A program made the translations under genes and the position numbers. This document shows positions 5,408 through 43,800 of a stretch of DNA of 64,000 bases, one piece after another. The first letter of the stretch is position 1. Every line of letters starts with the position of its first letter. The notes under the pieces are model-generated. The model searched no databases. It was not told where the DNA came from and was given only the letters and a program-made list of their open reading frames with translations. The DNA comes from Zeimonas arvi (GTDB taxonomy: Bacteria; Pseudomonadota; Gammaproteobacteria; Burkholderiales; Burkholderiaceae_E), in contig NZ_VDUY01000001.1 of assembly GCF_008039575.1 (NCBI RefSeq), positions 186,001 to 250,000 on the forward strand, given 5' to 3'.

Positions 5408-5528
5408 CGGAGGATTCCGGGCGGGGGGCGCAGCGGCTGCGCCCCCCTGTTCGAATGCGCCCGCGGTCGTTGCCGACCTCGGGCGAAGGCACTGCGAAAG
5501 CAGCCGCCAGGCGATCAGGCCCGAGGGC

Positions 5529-39422: not shown

Positions 39423-40316
39423 ATGGTCGAATGGGATGACCTGAGGTACTTCGTTTCACTCGGACGCGAGGGCAGCACGCTGGCGGCGAGTCGGGCGCTC
39501 GGCGTCGACCAGTCCACGGTGCAGCGTCGGGTCGCGGCGCTGGAGAAGCGCCTCGGGCGCCCGCTCGTCGCACGCGGGCAGAGCGGCTATCGCCTGACCG
39601 ACTTCGGCCGCGCGCTGCTGGGGCCGGCCCAGGACGTGCACGCGGCCGTCGAACGCTTCGAGCAGTCGGTCGCGGAAGCGGTCCGCGGCGAAGCGGGCGT
39701 GGTGCGCGTCACCTGCCCCGAGCCGATCGTGCTGCGGCTGCAGCGCGCTGGCTTAGTCGACCGCTTCCATGCCCGCCACCCGGGGCTGCGGATCGAGTTC
39801 CTGGTCAGCGACCGCTACATGGACCTGATGCAGGGCGATGCGGACGTCGCGCTGCGCTCGGGCGACACCGACGACGGGGAGCTGGTCGGCCGCCGGATCG
39901 CGGATTCGATCTGGGCCGTCTACGGCAGCCGCGACTACCTGGCCGCGCACGGGCGACCGGCGCGCGTCGAGGACCTGCGCCAGCACGCACTGATCGGTCT
40001 CGACGACTCGATGTCCAGGCATCGCGCCGCGGCCTGGCTGCGAGAGATCGCGCCCGACGCGCCGCTGGTGGCGCGCAACGGCAGCGTGCTCGGGCTGCTG
40101 CATTCGGCCAAGGCCGGGCTCGGCCTGGCGCCGCTGCCGGTCGCGATCGCCGAGGCCGAGCCCGACCTGGAGCGGGTGCTGGGCCCGATCCCGGCGCTGC
40201 GCCGGATCTGGCGGGTCCTGACGCCGCCCCATCTGCGGCACGAACCGCGAGTCGCCGCATTCTTCGACTTCGTCGTCGCCGAGGCCGAGGCGCTCGCGCC
40301 GGTCCTGACCGGCTGA
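39423..40316 (+). CDS. LysR-family transcriptional regulator
   Basis: A 297-residue LysR regulator. N-terminal winged helix 1-60 (WDDLRYFVSLGREGSTLAASRALGVDQSTVQRRVAALEKRLG), then a LysR substrate-binding domain from about residue 90. The recognition helix has the less common QSTVQRRVAALE pattern of the group similar to CatR/PcaQ-unrelated single-gene regulators. It is divergent from the methyltransferase gene, its likely target; the frame extends upstream, but ATG 39423 gives the standard family N-terminus. Effector unknown. Confidence 0.88.
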   Translation: MVEWDDLRYFVSLGREGSTLAASRALGVDQSTVQRRVAALEKRLGRPLVARGQSGYRLTDFGRALLGPAQDVHAAVERFEQSVAEAVRGEAGVVRVTCPEPIVLRLQRAGLVDRFHARHPGLRIEFLVSDRYMDLMQGDADVALRSGDTDDGELVGRRIADSIWAVYGSRDYLAAHGRPARVEDLRQHALIGLDDSMSRHRAAAWLREIAPDAPLVARNGSVLGLLHSAKAGLGLAPLPVAIAEAEPDLERVLGPIPALRRIWRVLTPPHLRHEPRVAAFFDFVVAEAEALAPVLTG

Positions 40317-40372
40317 GAACCGTTCACCTTGCGCTCGTCCCTGGATGCACCCGGGTCGCCGGCGGGACAGGC

Positions 40373-40855
40373 TCACCGGTCGCGCAGCGAGCTGAACACG
40401 TAGTCGCGATCCTTCTGCGGCGCGTGACAGGCGAAGCACGCCCCCTCGGCCTTGTCTGCCACCACGCGCTTCGCGGGATCGCCTCCGGCGAAGCCCTCGA
40501 ATCCCCAGCCGCCCGTGGCCGCGTAGCGCTTCGCGTCCTTGTGCATGACCCCGGCCACCTTGCGCGCGCCCTCGGTCACTGCCCCGTCGGCGCGGCTGGC
40601 TTCGAGCAGGTCGAACACGATGACCGCGCCGTCGGGAAAGCGGCCGTTGCGGTAGCCCTCGAGCGCCTTCTGGTTCGCGTACAGGTGGTGGATCCCGCCG
40701 AAAGCGGCGTGAAGGGGGTGTCCCTCCTCGATCACCATGCTCTTGACGTGATGCCAGCTGCGGTAGTTCTCCGGATAGGGCACCGAAGGGTCGGCGGCGA
40801 GCACGGGCGCGGCGGCGACGACGCAGGCGCAACCGGCAAGGAACAGTGATTTCAT
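40373..40855 (-). CDS. Cytochrome P460 family periplasmic c-type heme protein
   Basis: A 160-residue exported protein. Signal peptide 1-20 ends APVLA; a single heme motif CFACH (C140, C143, H144) lies near the C-terminus, as in cytochrome P460 and cytochrome c'-beta. YPENYRSWHHVKS, GGIHHLYANQKALEGYRNGRFPDGAVIVFDLLEA and TGGWGFEGF match the P460 domain. The P460 group oxidises hydroxylamine or binds NO; whether the lysine-heme cross-link of true P460 exists cannot be seen. RBS GAGGAGG precedes ATG 40855. The gene is divergent from a cysteine-rich MarR regulator and its start lies 16 bases from a perfect 31-base palindrome, so it is very likely repressed by that regulator. Confidence 0.87.
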   Translation of the reverse strand: MKSLFLAGCACVVAAAPVLAADPSVPYPENYRSWHHVKSMVIEEGHPLHAAFGGIHHLYANQKALEGYRNGRFPDGAVIVFDLLEASRADGAVTEGARKVAGVMHKDAKRYAATGGWGFEGFAGGDPAKRVVADKAEGACFACHAPQKDRDYVFSSLRDR

Positions 40856-40870
40856 GGTGATGCCTCCTCG

Positions 40871-40901
40871 TGTTTTATGTATCGACTCGATACATAAAAC
40901 A
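40871..40901. promoter_or_regulatory. Perfect 31-base palindrome, candidate MarR operator
   Basis: Arms TGTTTTATGTATCGA (40871-40885) and its exact reverse complement (40887-40901) around a single C. It lies immediately upstream of the P460 ribosome site. An 8-base half-site CGATACAT recurs at 40944-40951 over the -10 of the MarR gene. Arm length and symmetry are well beyond chance in GC-rich sequence; the AT-rich composition stands out. Confidence 0.85.
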
Positions 40902-40922
40902 GCGTGCGCGACAAGCCCAGGT

Positions 40923-40952
40923 TTGTCAAGCAATGCTTGGAGGCGATACATT
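40923..40952 (+). promoter_or_regulatory. Candidate promoter of the MarR operon
   Basis: TTGTCA (40923-40928) and TACATT (40947-40952) with an 18-base spacer; the spacer holds a 13-base palindrome CAAGCA-A-TGCTTG (40927-40939) and the -10 overlaps the CGATACAT half-site. Transcription would start near 40959, almost at the first ATG, so the mRNA is leaderless or translation begins at ATG 40974 behind AGGA. Confidence 0.5.
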
Positions 40953-40958
40953 CTGTCG

Positions 40959-41516
40959 ATGATCAGGACCCCGATGATCCTCGAACGCCTCGGCGCGCTC
41001 GTCCATCAGGCCGTGCGCGACGACGCCGCGCGTCACGGCCTGCTTCCGATCCATCTGCAGGTGCTCCAGTACCTCGCCCAAGCCAACCGATACAGCGACC
41101 TGCCGATCGCGATCGCCGAGTATTTCGGCATCACGCGCGGCACGGTCTCGCAGACCCTCTCCGTGCTGGAGCGACGGGGTTTGCTGACGAAGGCGCGCGA
41201 CCCCGTCCACGGCCGCCGCGTCCACCTGCGCCTCACGCCGCAGGGCCTCGCCATCCTCGGGGACAGCTGGACCGAACGCGTGCAGGCGGCGTTGTGCGCC
41301 GAGCCCGCATCGGCGCGGCTCGACGAGACGCTGGTCGATGTCCTGGCCGCGCTGCAGCGGATCAACGGCCGCCGCGCCTTCGGCGTGTGCAGCCAATGCG
41401 CCCACTTCCGCGCCGACGCCGGCGGTACGCACTGCGGCCTGACCGGCGAGCCGCTCGCCGCGGAACAGACCGTCAAGATCTGCCGCGAATGGGCCGCACC
41501 CATCCCCACCGACTGA
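40959..41516 (+). CDS. MarR-family regulator with C-terminal four-cysteine motif
   Basis: A 185-residue winged-helix regulator. The DNA-binding part is typical: LLPIHLQVLQYLAQ, DLPIAIAEYFGITRGTVSQTLSVLERRGLLTKARDPVHGRRVHLRLTPQG (about 29-96). The unusual part is the C-terminus: C144-X2-C147-X11-C159-X15-C175, a CxxC...C...C set likely to bind zinc or an iron-sulfur cluster. It is divergent from cytochrome P460 with a perfect palindrome between, and heads an operon with phzF and an enoyl-CoA hydratase. Start may be ATG 40959 or ATG 40974 (MILERLG), the latter having a better AGGA site. Possible redox, NO or metal sensing is inference. Confidence 0.85.
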   Translation: MIRTPMILERLGALVHQAVRDDAARHGLLPIHLQVLQYLAQANRYSDLPIAIAEYFGITRGTVSQTLSVLERRGLLTKARDPVHGRRVHLRLTPQGLAILGDSWTERVQAALCAEPASARLDETLVDVLAALQRINGRRAFGVCSQCAHFRADAGGTHCGLTGEPLAAEQTVKICREWAAPIPTD

Positions 41517-41521
41517 CTCCG

Positions 41522-42373
41522 ATGCCCCAGCCCCGCCGCTTCCACCAGCTCGACGTCTTCACCGCCATCCCGTACCAGGGCAATCCGCTGGCCGTGGTCC
41601 ACGACGCGCAGGACCTCTCCGATGCTCGGATGGCCGCCTTCGCCCGCTGGACCAACCTGTCGGAGACCACCTTCCTGCTGCCGCCGACCGACCCGCAGGC
41701 CGACTACCGGGTGCGCATCTTCACGCCCGGCGGCGAGCTGCCCTTCGCCGGCCACCCCACCCTGGGCAGCTGCCACGCCTGGCTGACCGCGGGCGGCACG
41801 CCGCGCGGCGGGGACTCGATCGTCCAGCAGTGCGGCGTGGGCCTGGTGCGCATCCGCCGCGACGGGCCGCGGCTGGCCTTCGCGGCGCCCCCCTTGCGCC
41901 GGACCGGGCCGCTCGACGACGCGCTGCTCGCGCGGCTCGCCGCCGCGCTCGGACTGCGAGACGGCGAGATCATTGCCCACCAGTGGGTCGACAACGGCCC
42001 CGGCTGGTGCGCGGTGATGCTCGGCTCGGCCGGGCGGGTGCTGGCCGTTCGCCCCGACTGGGCGGTGCTGGGCGACGCCAGGCTGGGCCTGATCGGGCCG
42101 CAGCCGGCCGGCAGCGACACCGACTTCGAGGTTCGCGCCTTCGTGCCGACGCTGGGCGTGTCCGAGGACCCGGTCACCGGCAGCCTGAACGCCGGACTGG
42201 CCCAGTGGCTGATGGGCGCGGGCCTAGCGGCTTCGAACTACACGGTGCGCCAGGGCACCGCGCTGGGCCGCGCCGGCAAGGTCTTCCTGGACCGAGTCGG
42301 CAACGACATCTGGGTCGGCGGCCAGGTGGCCGACTGCATCGCCGGCACCGTGGCCTTTCCCGAGGATCGCTGA
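41522..42373 (+). CDS. PhzF-family epimerase/isomerase
   Basis: A 283-residue PhzF-fold protein with the two-lobed diaminopimelate-epimerase-like structure. The N-terminal FHQLDVFTAIPYQGNPLAVV, catalytic glutamate E48 in NLSETTFLLP, FTPGGELPFAGHPTLGSCHAWL and the C-terminal SEDPVTGSLNAGLA are all present. In phenazine producers PhzF isomerises dihydro-hydroxyanthranilate; most homologues, as here without phz genes, have unknown reactions. Starts five bases after the MarR stop and ends one base before the enoyl-CoA hydratase gene. Confidence 0.91.
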   Translation: MPQPRRFHQLDVFTAIPYQGNPLAVVHDAQDLSDARMAAFARWTNLSETTFLLPPTDPQADYRVRIFTPGGELPFAGHPTLGSCHAWLTAGGTPRGGDSIVQQCGVGLVRIRRDGPRLAFAAPPLRRTGPLDDALLARLAAALGLRDGEIIAHQWVDNGPGWCAVMLGSAGRVLAVRPDWAVLGDARLGLIGPQPAGSDTDFEVRAFVPTLGVSEDPVTGSLNAGLAQWLMGAGLAASNYTVRQGTALGRAGKVFLDRVGNDIWVGGQVADCIAGTVAFPEDR

Positions 42374-42374
42374 C

Positions 42375-43169
42375 ATGAACGCACCGCAGACCGCCCGGGA
42401 ATTCGCGATCGACCCGATCCCCGAGGGCGCGATCTTCCGGATCGAACGACCCGCCAAGCTCAACGCGCTGACCCGGCCGGTGCTGCTCGGCCTGGCCGCC
42501 TGCCTCGACGAGCTCGAAGCGCGGGGCGCCCGGCTGCTGGTCGTCACCGGCGCGGGCGAGCGCGCTTTCTGTGCCGGCACCGACCTGGGCGAATTGCAGA
42601 CACTCGATCCCGATGCGCGGATCGCCAAGAGCACGATGGCGCGCGAGCTGCTGGTTCGCCTGTCGCGCTCGCGCCTGGTCAGCGTCGCGGCGGTCAACGG
42701 CCTGGCCTTCGGCGGCGGGCTGGAGCTCGCGATGGCCTGCACGCTGCGCATCGCGGCAGCGCATGCCAGCTTCTCGCTGCCCGAGGTGAAGCTCGGCCTG
42801 CTGCCCGCCTACGCCGGCACCCAGTTCCTGCCCGCGCTGGTGGGCAAGGCCCGGGCGCTCGAGATCATGATGACCGGCCGGACGATTGCCGCCGACGAGG
42901 CGCTGTCGATCGGCCTGGTGCACCGCCTTGCGGAGCACGGCAGCTCCCTGCCGGACCAGGCGGTCGGCTTCGGGCGCGAGGTGGTCCGCTGGCCGGCCGG
43001 GGCGCTGGCCTGGATCCGCCGCTGCGTGGATGCGGCCGGCGAGCAGGTCGCGCACGCGGGCCTGTCCGTCGAGGATGCCGCGGTGCGCGCCACCTTCGAC
43101 TCGGCCGATGCCCGCGAAGGCGTCGCCGCCTTCCTGGAGAAACGCCAGCCGCGATTCGGACAGGGCTGA
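42375..43169 (+). CDS. Enoyl-CoA hydratase/isomerase family protein
   Basis: A 264-residue crotonase-fold protein. The oxyanion-hole segments AFCAGTDLGEL and NGLAFGGGLELAMACTLRIA are clear, and the two glutamates used by hydratases are kept (GGGLEL and LPEVKLGLLPAYAGTQ; the usual GAGGTQ reads AYAGTQ). Likely hydrates or isomerises an enoyl-CoA in the cytosol. One base separates it from phzF, so they are co-translated. No partner acyl-CoA ligase or thiolase is adjacent, so the pathway is open. Confidence 0.9.
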   Translation: MNAPQTAREFAIDPIPEGAIFRIERPAKLNALTRPVLLGLAACLDELEARGARLLVVTGAGERAFCAGTDLGELQTLDPDARIAKSTMARELLVRLSRSRLVSVAAVNGLAFGGGLELAMACTLRIAAAHASFSLPEVKLGLLPAYAGTQFLPALVGKARALEIMMTGRTIAADEALSIGLVHRLAEHGSSLPDQAVGFGREVVRWPAGALAWIRRCVDAAGEQVAHAGLSVEDAAVRATFDSADAREGVAAFLEKRQPRFGQG

Positions 43170-43218
43170 GGCCGGGAATGCGCGACAATCGCGCCACGTT
43201 CATCCACCGTCCCCCCGC

Positions 43219-43800
43219 ATGAAGCTCTTCTCGCCGCTCTACCGCCTCGCGATGACCTGGTCGCGACATCCGCGCGCCCCCTGGTACCTCGGCGGCCTGA
43301 GCTTTGCCGAATCCTCCTTCTTCCCGGTGCCGCCCGACGTGATGCTGGCGCCGATGAGCCTGGCCAACCCCCGCCGCGCGATGGCCTTCGCGCTGCTGAC
43401 CACGCTGACCTCGGTGGCGGGCGGCCTGTTCGGCTACGCGATCGGCCTGTTCGCGATTGACGCGATCCTGCCCTGGCTGCAGGAAGGCCGGTACTGGCCC
43501 GCCTACGAAACCGCGGTCGCGTGGTTCGACGAATGGGGCGTGTGGGCGGTCTTCATTGCCGGTTTCTCGCCGATCCCGTACAAGGTGTTCACCATCGCCG
43601 CCGGCGCCCTGTCGATGGCGCTGTTGCCCTTCACGATCGCCTCACTGGTCGGGCGCGGCCTGCGCTTCTTCCTGGTCGCGGGCCTGATGGCCTGGGGCGG
43701 CGAGAGGATGGAGGCCATGCTGCAGCGCTACGTGGACCGCCTCGGCTGGGCGACCGTTGCCCTGGTCGTCGTGGCAGGCGTCTGGTACGCCTGGCGTTGA
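43219..43800 (+). CDS. YqaA-family (DedA/VTT-like) membrane protein
   Basis: A 193-residue inner-membrane protein of the YqaA group, related to the DedA/SNARE-associated (VTT) family. Landmarks are LGGLSFAESSFFPVPPDVMLAPMSLANP at the N-terminus, the GGLFGYAIG helix, and FIAGFSPIPYKVFTIAAGALSM, the re-entrant-loop-like segment; about four hydrophobic segments in total. Family members are thought to move lipids or protect membranes, with little direct evidence. Follows the hydratase gene by 49 bases. Confidence 0.88.
   Translation: MKLFSPLYRLAMTWSRHPRAPWYLGGLSFAESSFFPVPPDVMLAPMSLANPRRAMAFALLTTLTSVAGGLFGYAIGLFAIDAILPWLQEGRYWPAYETAVAWFDEWGVWAVFIAGFSPIPYKVFTIAAGALSMALLPFTIASLVGRGLRFFLVAGLMAWGGERMEAMLQRYVDRLGWATVALVVVAGVWYAWR

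Follow-up and report, generated by a model that had tools for sequence, protein, structure and literature searches.

A perfect 31-bp palindrome, O1, lies in the gap between two divergent genes of Zeimonas arvi, one for a periplasmic heme protein and one for a MarR-family regulator (Table 1). Its presence raises the question of which protein reads it, which genes it controls, and to which signal that control responds. The whole stretch of DNA that was analysed, termed the window, is 64,000 nucleotides long.

Table 1. Features at the heme gene-marR locus; positions are those of the window
Feature	Position	Strand	Basis or remark
Cytochrome c'-beta-like periplasmic heme protein, Cytochrome_P460 family, 160 aa	40373..40855	-	PF16694 E 1.9e-34
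Putative operator O1, perfect 31-bp palindrome	40871..40901	.	conserved core 40877-40895
Heme-gene -10 CACGCT, poor match	40901..40906	-	placed by position in relatives
Overlapping inverted -35s	40923..40929	.	TTGTCA (+, marR), TTGACA (-, heme gene)
Putative operator O2, degenerate palindrome copy over marR -10	40933..40951	.	sequence ATGCTTGGAGGCGATACAT
marR -10 TACATT	40947..40952	+	6 nt before ATG; promoter consensus match
MarR-family regulator, 185 aa	40959..41516	+	PF12802 E 1e-13; start codon kept in relatives
C-terminal four-cysteine domain, residues 141-178 (C144, C147, C159, C175)	41379..41492	+	64/64 rows
phzF-family isomerase	41522..42373	+	PF02567/TIGR00654 over 41522-42370
Enoyl-CoA hydratase/isomerase family protein	42375..43169	+	PF00378

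The arms of O1, TGTTTTATGTATCGA (40871-40885) and TCGATACATAAAACA (40887-40901), are 100% complementary and enclose a 1-nt centre, which agrees with the exact symmetry about one base noted in a preliminary description of this DNA (15 + 1 + 15 nt). That description also held the palindrome to be AT-rich and longer than chance would allow, and both points are borne out. O1 is the longest perfect palindrome in the window, with an arm of 15 compared to 12 for the runner-up. The longest arm in 30 Markov-1 sequences of 64 kb was 12, reached in only one of them, and when the 103-bp gap alone was modelled in 20,000 Markov-1 sequences, no arm was as long as 12. GC content falls from 70.1% for the window as a whole to 49.5% for the gap and 29% for the palindrome. 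Three copies of CGATACAT occur in the window, all inside the gap, compared to an expectation of 0.49. The conserved core of O1 comprises 19 bp, ATGYATCGA-S-TCGATRCAT, and with up to three mismatches allowed this 19-mer has a single site in the whole 3.83-Mb genome. Plain chance and a general repeat are ruled out by the Markov controls, by this uniqueness, and by the scans of relatives' genomes given below. The second-longest perfect palindrome, at 5423-5447, is GC-rich with 12-base arms and may be the stem of a terminator, though it has no clear run of T.

Relatives were gathered by genome scan with the regulator (21 loci), and the regulator was searched in 18 genomes of the genus, 369 of the class (20 at E <= 1e-25), and 399 of the order (40 at E <= 1e-25). 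The resulting set of marR rows numbers 74, the window and 73 loci. Counts out of 24 refer to the non-redundant loci of the window's MarR clade, the window counted in, without L027 (97% identical to the window) and without L032, L071, and L072 (copies of L030, L035, and L042). At marR, the 19-mer has zero, one, two, or three mismatches in 13, 7, 2, and 2 of these 24 loci, respectively, and the inner 11-mer is found with at most one mismatch in all of them. The centre of O1 is 72–75 bp before the marR ATG (in L005 with the start shifted by 21 nt). The inner 19 bp are what the relatives have in common; the 6 bp that flank them at either end are matched only in the near-identical L027. The two arms covary at position 4/16, where C..G or T..A is found, and are complementary there in 20 of 24 loci. 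The preliminary description had made its proposal of a binding site depend on conservation in related P460-MarR neighbourhoods. The palindrome is conserved there (22 of 24 loci with at most two mismatches), and such conserved sites at fixed places mean that it is very probably a binding site.

Conservation of the site goes together with its confinement. In the whole genomes of 23 relatives, the 19-mer (at most two mismatches) occurs in 22, only at the marR locus, and backward controls gave 0; one genome, G788, has no site at this cut-off. All 22 site loci that were fetched contain marR. Other matches of the scan are within about 60 bp of the marR sites or belong to a second copy of the locus in Thauera sp. 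2A1. Because the site is confined to the marR locus in these genomes, the regulator looks like a one-target switch.

Some loci show unusual arrangements. In the same genus as the window, the marR match can be in two pieces (G016, L007/L015) or reduced to its tail end (G011, L008), with the palindrome kept upstream. The locus L069 has a 1-mismatch operator (G168:C1:2344-2362) in a genome of the class without such a regulator at E <= 1e-25. Thauera sp. 2A1 has the entire locus twice (L030 and L032), the second copy being in a record titled plasmid p2A1.

The regulator itself scores 51.5 bits with PF12802, compared to a cut-off of 27, and whole-chain Foldseek comparison gave MarR-type structures only, among the matches listed. 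In a tree of 70 different rows, the window is placed in a 25-row clade with support of 100/100. Recognition-helix residue 60 is Arg in this clade and Lys in 43 other rows, with two unclassified. The outer bases of the operator half-sites are CAT, CAC, or CAA in the Arg60 clade (61 of 64 half-sites), and CTA, CCA, or CGA in the Lys60 group (31 of 46). The inner 11-mer is present in 19 of 42 Lys60 loci, and 23 of 42 are without a core site at this cut-off. Because the outer operator bases follow the type of regulator, MarR as the binder is supported; the Arg/Lys change falls on one branch of the tree, so this match counts once. Taken as a whole, the sequence comparisons allow high confidence that the palindrome would be the operator of this MarR. 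Another regulator could in theory own the site, with MarR acting elsewhere: a LysR-type gene (39423-40316) is found beyond the heme gene, and a global regulator of the Crp/Fnr type may also be considered. However, 22 of 23 relatives have the site nowhere but next to this MarR, the outer bases of the site change with the MarR type, and its second copy covers marR's own promoter, all of which makes this ownership very improbable.

The second copy, O2, is what the preliminary description had termed a half-site on the regulator's -10. The CGATACAT copy at 40944-40951 does overlap that -10, but it forms the better, right arm of a degenerate full palindrome, which in the window has three mismatches to the 19-mer core. 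Most relatives have O2 in a better form than the window; it is found with at most four mismatches in 21 of 24 loci and is unrecognisable in the other three. The spacing between O1 and O2 is 55–58 bp in the 20 loci in which both were picked. A third copy between them (at most five mismatches) occurs in 13 of 24 loci and is lost in the window.

The promoters, identified as consensus matches, surround these sites. TTGTCA-18-TACATT (40923-40952), reading toward marR, is the only sigma-70-like promoter found in 40300-43300, with a value of 0.0 for shuffles. A marR promoter of at least 8/12 is found in 22 of 24 loci, each with 6–7 nt from the -10 to the ATG; L041 and L045 are below 8/12, and in L045 the nearest in-frame ATG abuts a -10-like element. 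Because only 6–7 nt separate the -10 from the ATG, the regulator mRNA is predicted to be leaderless, and probably is. The two promoters have a common -35, TTGTCAA in 20 of 24 loci, which gives TTGTCA toward marR and TTGACA toward the divergent gene. The divergent promoter scores at least 9/12 in 23 of 24 loci, compared to 6.3% of shuffles, and 10/12 in 13 of 24, compared to 0.5% of shuffles; in L030 the best one sits at a different place. The window's own divergent promoter totals 8/12, a total that 31% of shuffled controls also reach and that carries no weight alone, the weight being on the 23 loci.

These places bear on whether MarR would repress or activate. O1 is located at about the expected start of the divergent transcript and O2 on the marR -10, which are positions expected of a repressor, and a repressor divergon is quite likely. 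If MarR were instead an activator of the heme gene, the poor divergent -10 of the window would be understandable, as for a promoter needing help. Yet O1 is downstream of this -10, where transcription is expected to start, and O2 covers a -10; activation is accordingly unlikely. The inverted repeat might also act in RNA, as a hairpin in the heme-gene leader with a role in stability, temperature sensing, or attenuation, given that O1 is perfectly complementary and located at the predicted 5' end of that transcript. This is extremely improbable, because the sequence itself, beyond its complementarity, is kept at O2, outside the heme-gene transcript, and because a 1-nt centre suits a dimer site.

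The heme protein had been described as a cytochrome P460, a designation that can be refined: it is of the cytochrome c'-beta type and not a cross-linked P460. Its best solved relative is the cytochrome c'-beta of M. capsulatus (6hih, E 2e-56), while P460 (6hiu) matches with E 8e-12. It contains CxxCH, as do 19 of 19 homologues, and the heme-cross-linking Lys of cytochrome P460 is absent in all 19. The corresponding position (Phe 61 in M. capsulatus) is Phe in the window and in 18 of 19 homologues, and Leu in one; residue 61 was located by counting from Phe 32, itself anchored by entry 7zs4 (Phe32Val) in the alignment and by a legend in PMC11928373. In the available part of that review, proteins of the c'-beta type bind NO tightly and are not of the hydroxylamine-oxidising kind, though ‘half-way’ members exist (PMC11928373). 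Because the heme protein is of the c'-beta type, with Phe in place of the cross-linking Lys, hydroxylamine oxidation by it is unlikely. Of the module that had been proposed to respond to NO, hydroxylamine, or redox conditions, the NO or redox link is plausible but unproven.

Cytochrome c'-beta is one of several products of the divergent operon. With 1.3 to 3 kb of upstream sequence available per locus, c'-beta is encoded in 18 of 24 loci, a redoxin/AhpC-like protein in 15, and a Thioredoxin_3 protein of 77–81 aa (CPVC, PF13192) in 11, and every locus has at least one of the three. The six loci without c'-beta have the small thioredoxin, the redoxin, or both in its stead, so that NO binding by the heme protein is at most part of the explanation. 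In L034, only a 26-residue match to the c'-beta start (~2567-2644) is found between the small thioredoxin and redoxin genes; the heme gene appears to have dropped out of this operon. In the Lys60 group, c'-beta is divergent in 13 of 42 loci, and other divergent partners are DUF2024, small thioredoxin, redoxin, and CMD-family proteins. The DUF2024 protein (L057, L060, and L068) has a CxxCH-like motif, and a CMD/AhpD-like (carboxymuconolactone-decarboxylase-family) protein is found in L066; both may belong to the same stress response.

On the other side, 5 nt separate marR from phzF and 1 nt separates phzF from the hydratase gene, and both are probably co-transcribed with marR in the window. Among the 73 relatives' loci, this pair follows the regulator in one (tblastn E <= 1e-10), the 97% identical L027, although for many loci only about 1.5 kb of downstream sequence is at hand, enough for the start of phzF. 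The idea that one regulator switches the heme protein and itself remains the natural reading, but the phzF and enoyl-CoA hydratase genes, which the preliminary description had included, are not supported as part of the module, given this lack of conservation.

What the regulator might sense is suggested by its C-terminal tail. The 64 aligned regulators have ten invariant residues, among them the four cysteines, and the count of 64 of 64 applies to rows with an intact tail. This set (A2) is also without L047 (contig end), L056, L064, L067, L092, and L083 (identical row). The four-cysteine pattern is kept in L056, L067, L083, and L092 and in the near-copies L027, L032, L071, and L072; L047 ends before it, and the L064 frame loses it after ‘FGV’. 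AlphaFold gave a mean pLDDT of 91.5, with 91–93 in the tail, when 64 rows were used, and a tail pLDDT below 50 with 21 rows (A1). Because the four cysteines are invariant and belong to a small domain of their own, we infer a metal or cluster site. A HiPIP-like tail, suggested by the cysteine spacing, was rejected: hhalign with PF01355 gave a probability of 5.8% and a score of 15.6, which was exceeded by 5 of 40 column shuffles that preserved Cys, and PF01355 was not in the Pfam listing.

Two cofactors come into question. An Fe-S cluster is favoured because a sister branch of the regulator is linked to frataxin and because of the analogue ArnR, as described in the available part of its source (PMC12343034). 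In that branch (L076-L098, Burkholderiales), cyaY directly precedes the regulator gene in 19 of the 22 loci for which upstream sequence is available. In the Lys60 group, cyaY (frataxin, PF01491) is upstream on the same strand in 20 of 42 loci. Several cyaY-linked loci have the same operator core before the marR-like gene, and L073 has both cyaY and c'-beta. NO is favoured as the signal because of the c'-beta partner and a co-occurrence with NirS, the latter subject to kinship, to sampling, and to the Lys60 count: a NirS-type cytochrome cd1 domain is encoded in 20 of 24 Arg-clade genomes compared to 51 of 198 in the order sample (Fisher 5e-8, kinship uncorrected), and in 9 of 20 in the Lys60 set. 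NirK was not found over the cut-off in the 24 genomes. One genome of the same genus as the window, G001, has NirS and lacks the regulator.

With the same operator and repressor, the four cysteines could instead hold zinc, either in a structural knuckle or in a switch of the Zn-thiolate type, with an oxidant, a disulfide or persulfide, or an electrophile as the signal in place of NO. The tail alone has weak zinc-ribbon matches in Pfam, below the cut-off (DZR_2 E 0.016-0.05), and the thiol-type partners (CPVC small thioredoxin, redoxins, and the DUF2024 and CMD/AhpD-type proteins of Lys60 loci) would suit such a switch. The frataxin neighbour and the NO-type heme partner fit Fe-S and NO better, though neither is decisive, and zinc with a signal other than NO is a possible but somewhat doubtful solution. 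The choice of Fe-S and NO over zinc or other redox signals would, from the sequences, be close to evenly balanced.

The preferred reading, in which we have fair confidence, is an autoregulated repressor divergon in which a four-cysteine centre, likely of Fe-S and possibly of Zn, responds to NO or to redox stress of a related kind. A MarR dimer would bind O1, near the expected start of the heme-gene transcript, and would also bind the weaker O2, which covers the -10 of marR. The two divergent promoters, with their common inverted -35, would in this way be shut together. The regulator transcript would begin at or beside its own ATG. NO or related redox stress would alter the four-cysteine centre, most likely an Fe-S cluster, and the altered dimer would release the DNA. 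Cytochrome c'-beta, joined in relatives by the small thioredoxin and redoxin, would then be made and would bind or remove the stressor, and the regulator, made as well, would restore repression.

The MarR family is better known for small-molecule and thiol sensing, and a MarR subfamily with a four-cysteine centre and a frataxin-linked sister branch would add a type of sensor to it. Tentatively, these proteins could form, in beta- and gammaproteobacteria, a new class of Fe-S sensors of the MarR type, marked by their four-Cys C-terminal domain, in which one branch is a dedicated NO-responsive regulator of c'-beta and periplasmic thiol-redox partners, and another is tied to frataxin. If true, cytochrome c'-beta, for which no physiological role is settled, would gain a signal and a regulon of its own. 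According to the available part of PMC11928373, it is still undetermined what exactly any cytochrome c' does. With a regulator that is widely conserved and looks dedicated to one target, its signal would reveal the purpose of c'-beta. Neither the four-Cys subfamily nor its pairing with cytochrome c'-beta was found described in the titles and abstract starts of the literature searched.

An autoregulated MarR divergon is a known kind of system. MarR-family autorepressors of the MarR, HucR, PecS, MftR, and HcaR type have palindromic sites between divergent genes, one of them on their own promoter. The locus described here has these features and the winged-helix MarR fold in common with them, but its regulator ends in a four-Cys domain, its mRNA is predicted to be leaderless, and its divergent promoters have a common inverted -35. 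Among the best 60 of 105 matches, solved MarR relatives do not cover the four-Cys tail and end near residue 140 (3nqo extends to 157). On the side of the target, the heme protein has CxxCH and the equivalents of capping Phe 32 and Phe 61 in common with M. capsulatus cytochrome c'-beta (6hih), as far as described in the available part of PMC11928373. The review does not contain the terms ‘operon’, ‘gene cluster’, or ‘upstream’, and ‘MarR’ matches there only within author names.

Fe-S sensing of NO, as proposed here, is the mode of NsrR and Rrf2 Fe-S regulators, which belong to another protein family; both Pfam and fold place the present regulator in the MarR family. ArnR of Corynebacterium is a winged-helix protein with a C-terminal cysteine sensory domain and a [4Fe-4S] cluster, in which NO abolishes DNA binding; it has three conserved cysteines (179, 193, and 223) and controls narKGHJI and hmp (PMC12343034, available part). 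Compared by this description, both regulators combine a MarR/ArsR-like winged helix with a C-terminal cysteine domain. They differ in that ArnR has three cysteines and the regulator here four, and in their targets, which are narKGHJI and hmp for ArnR and would be c'-beta and thioredoxin here.
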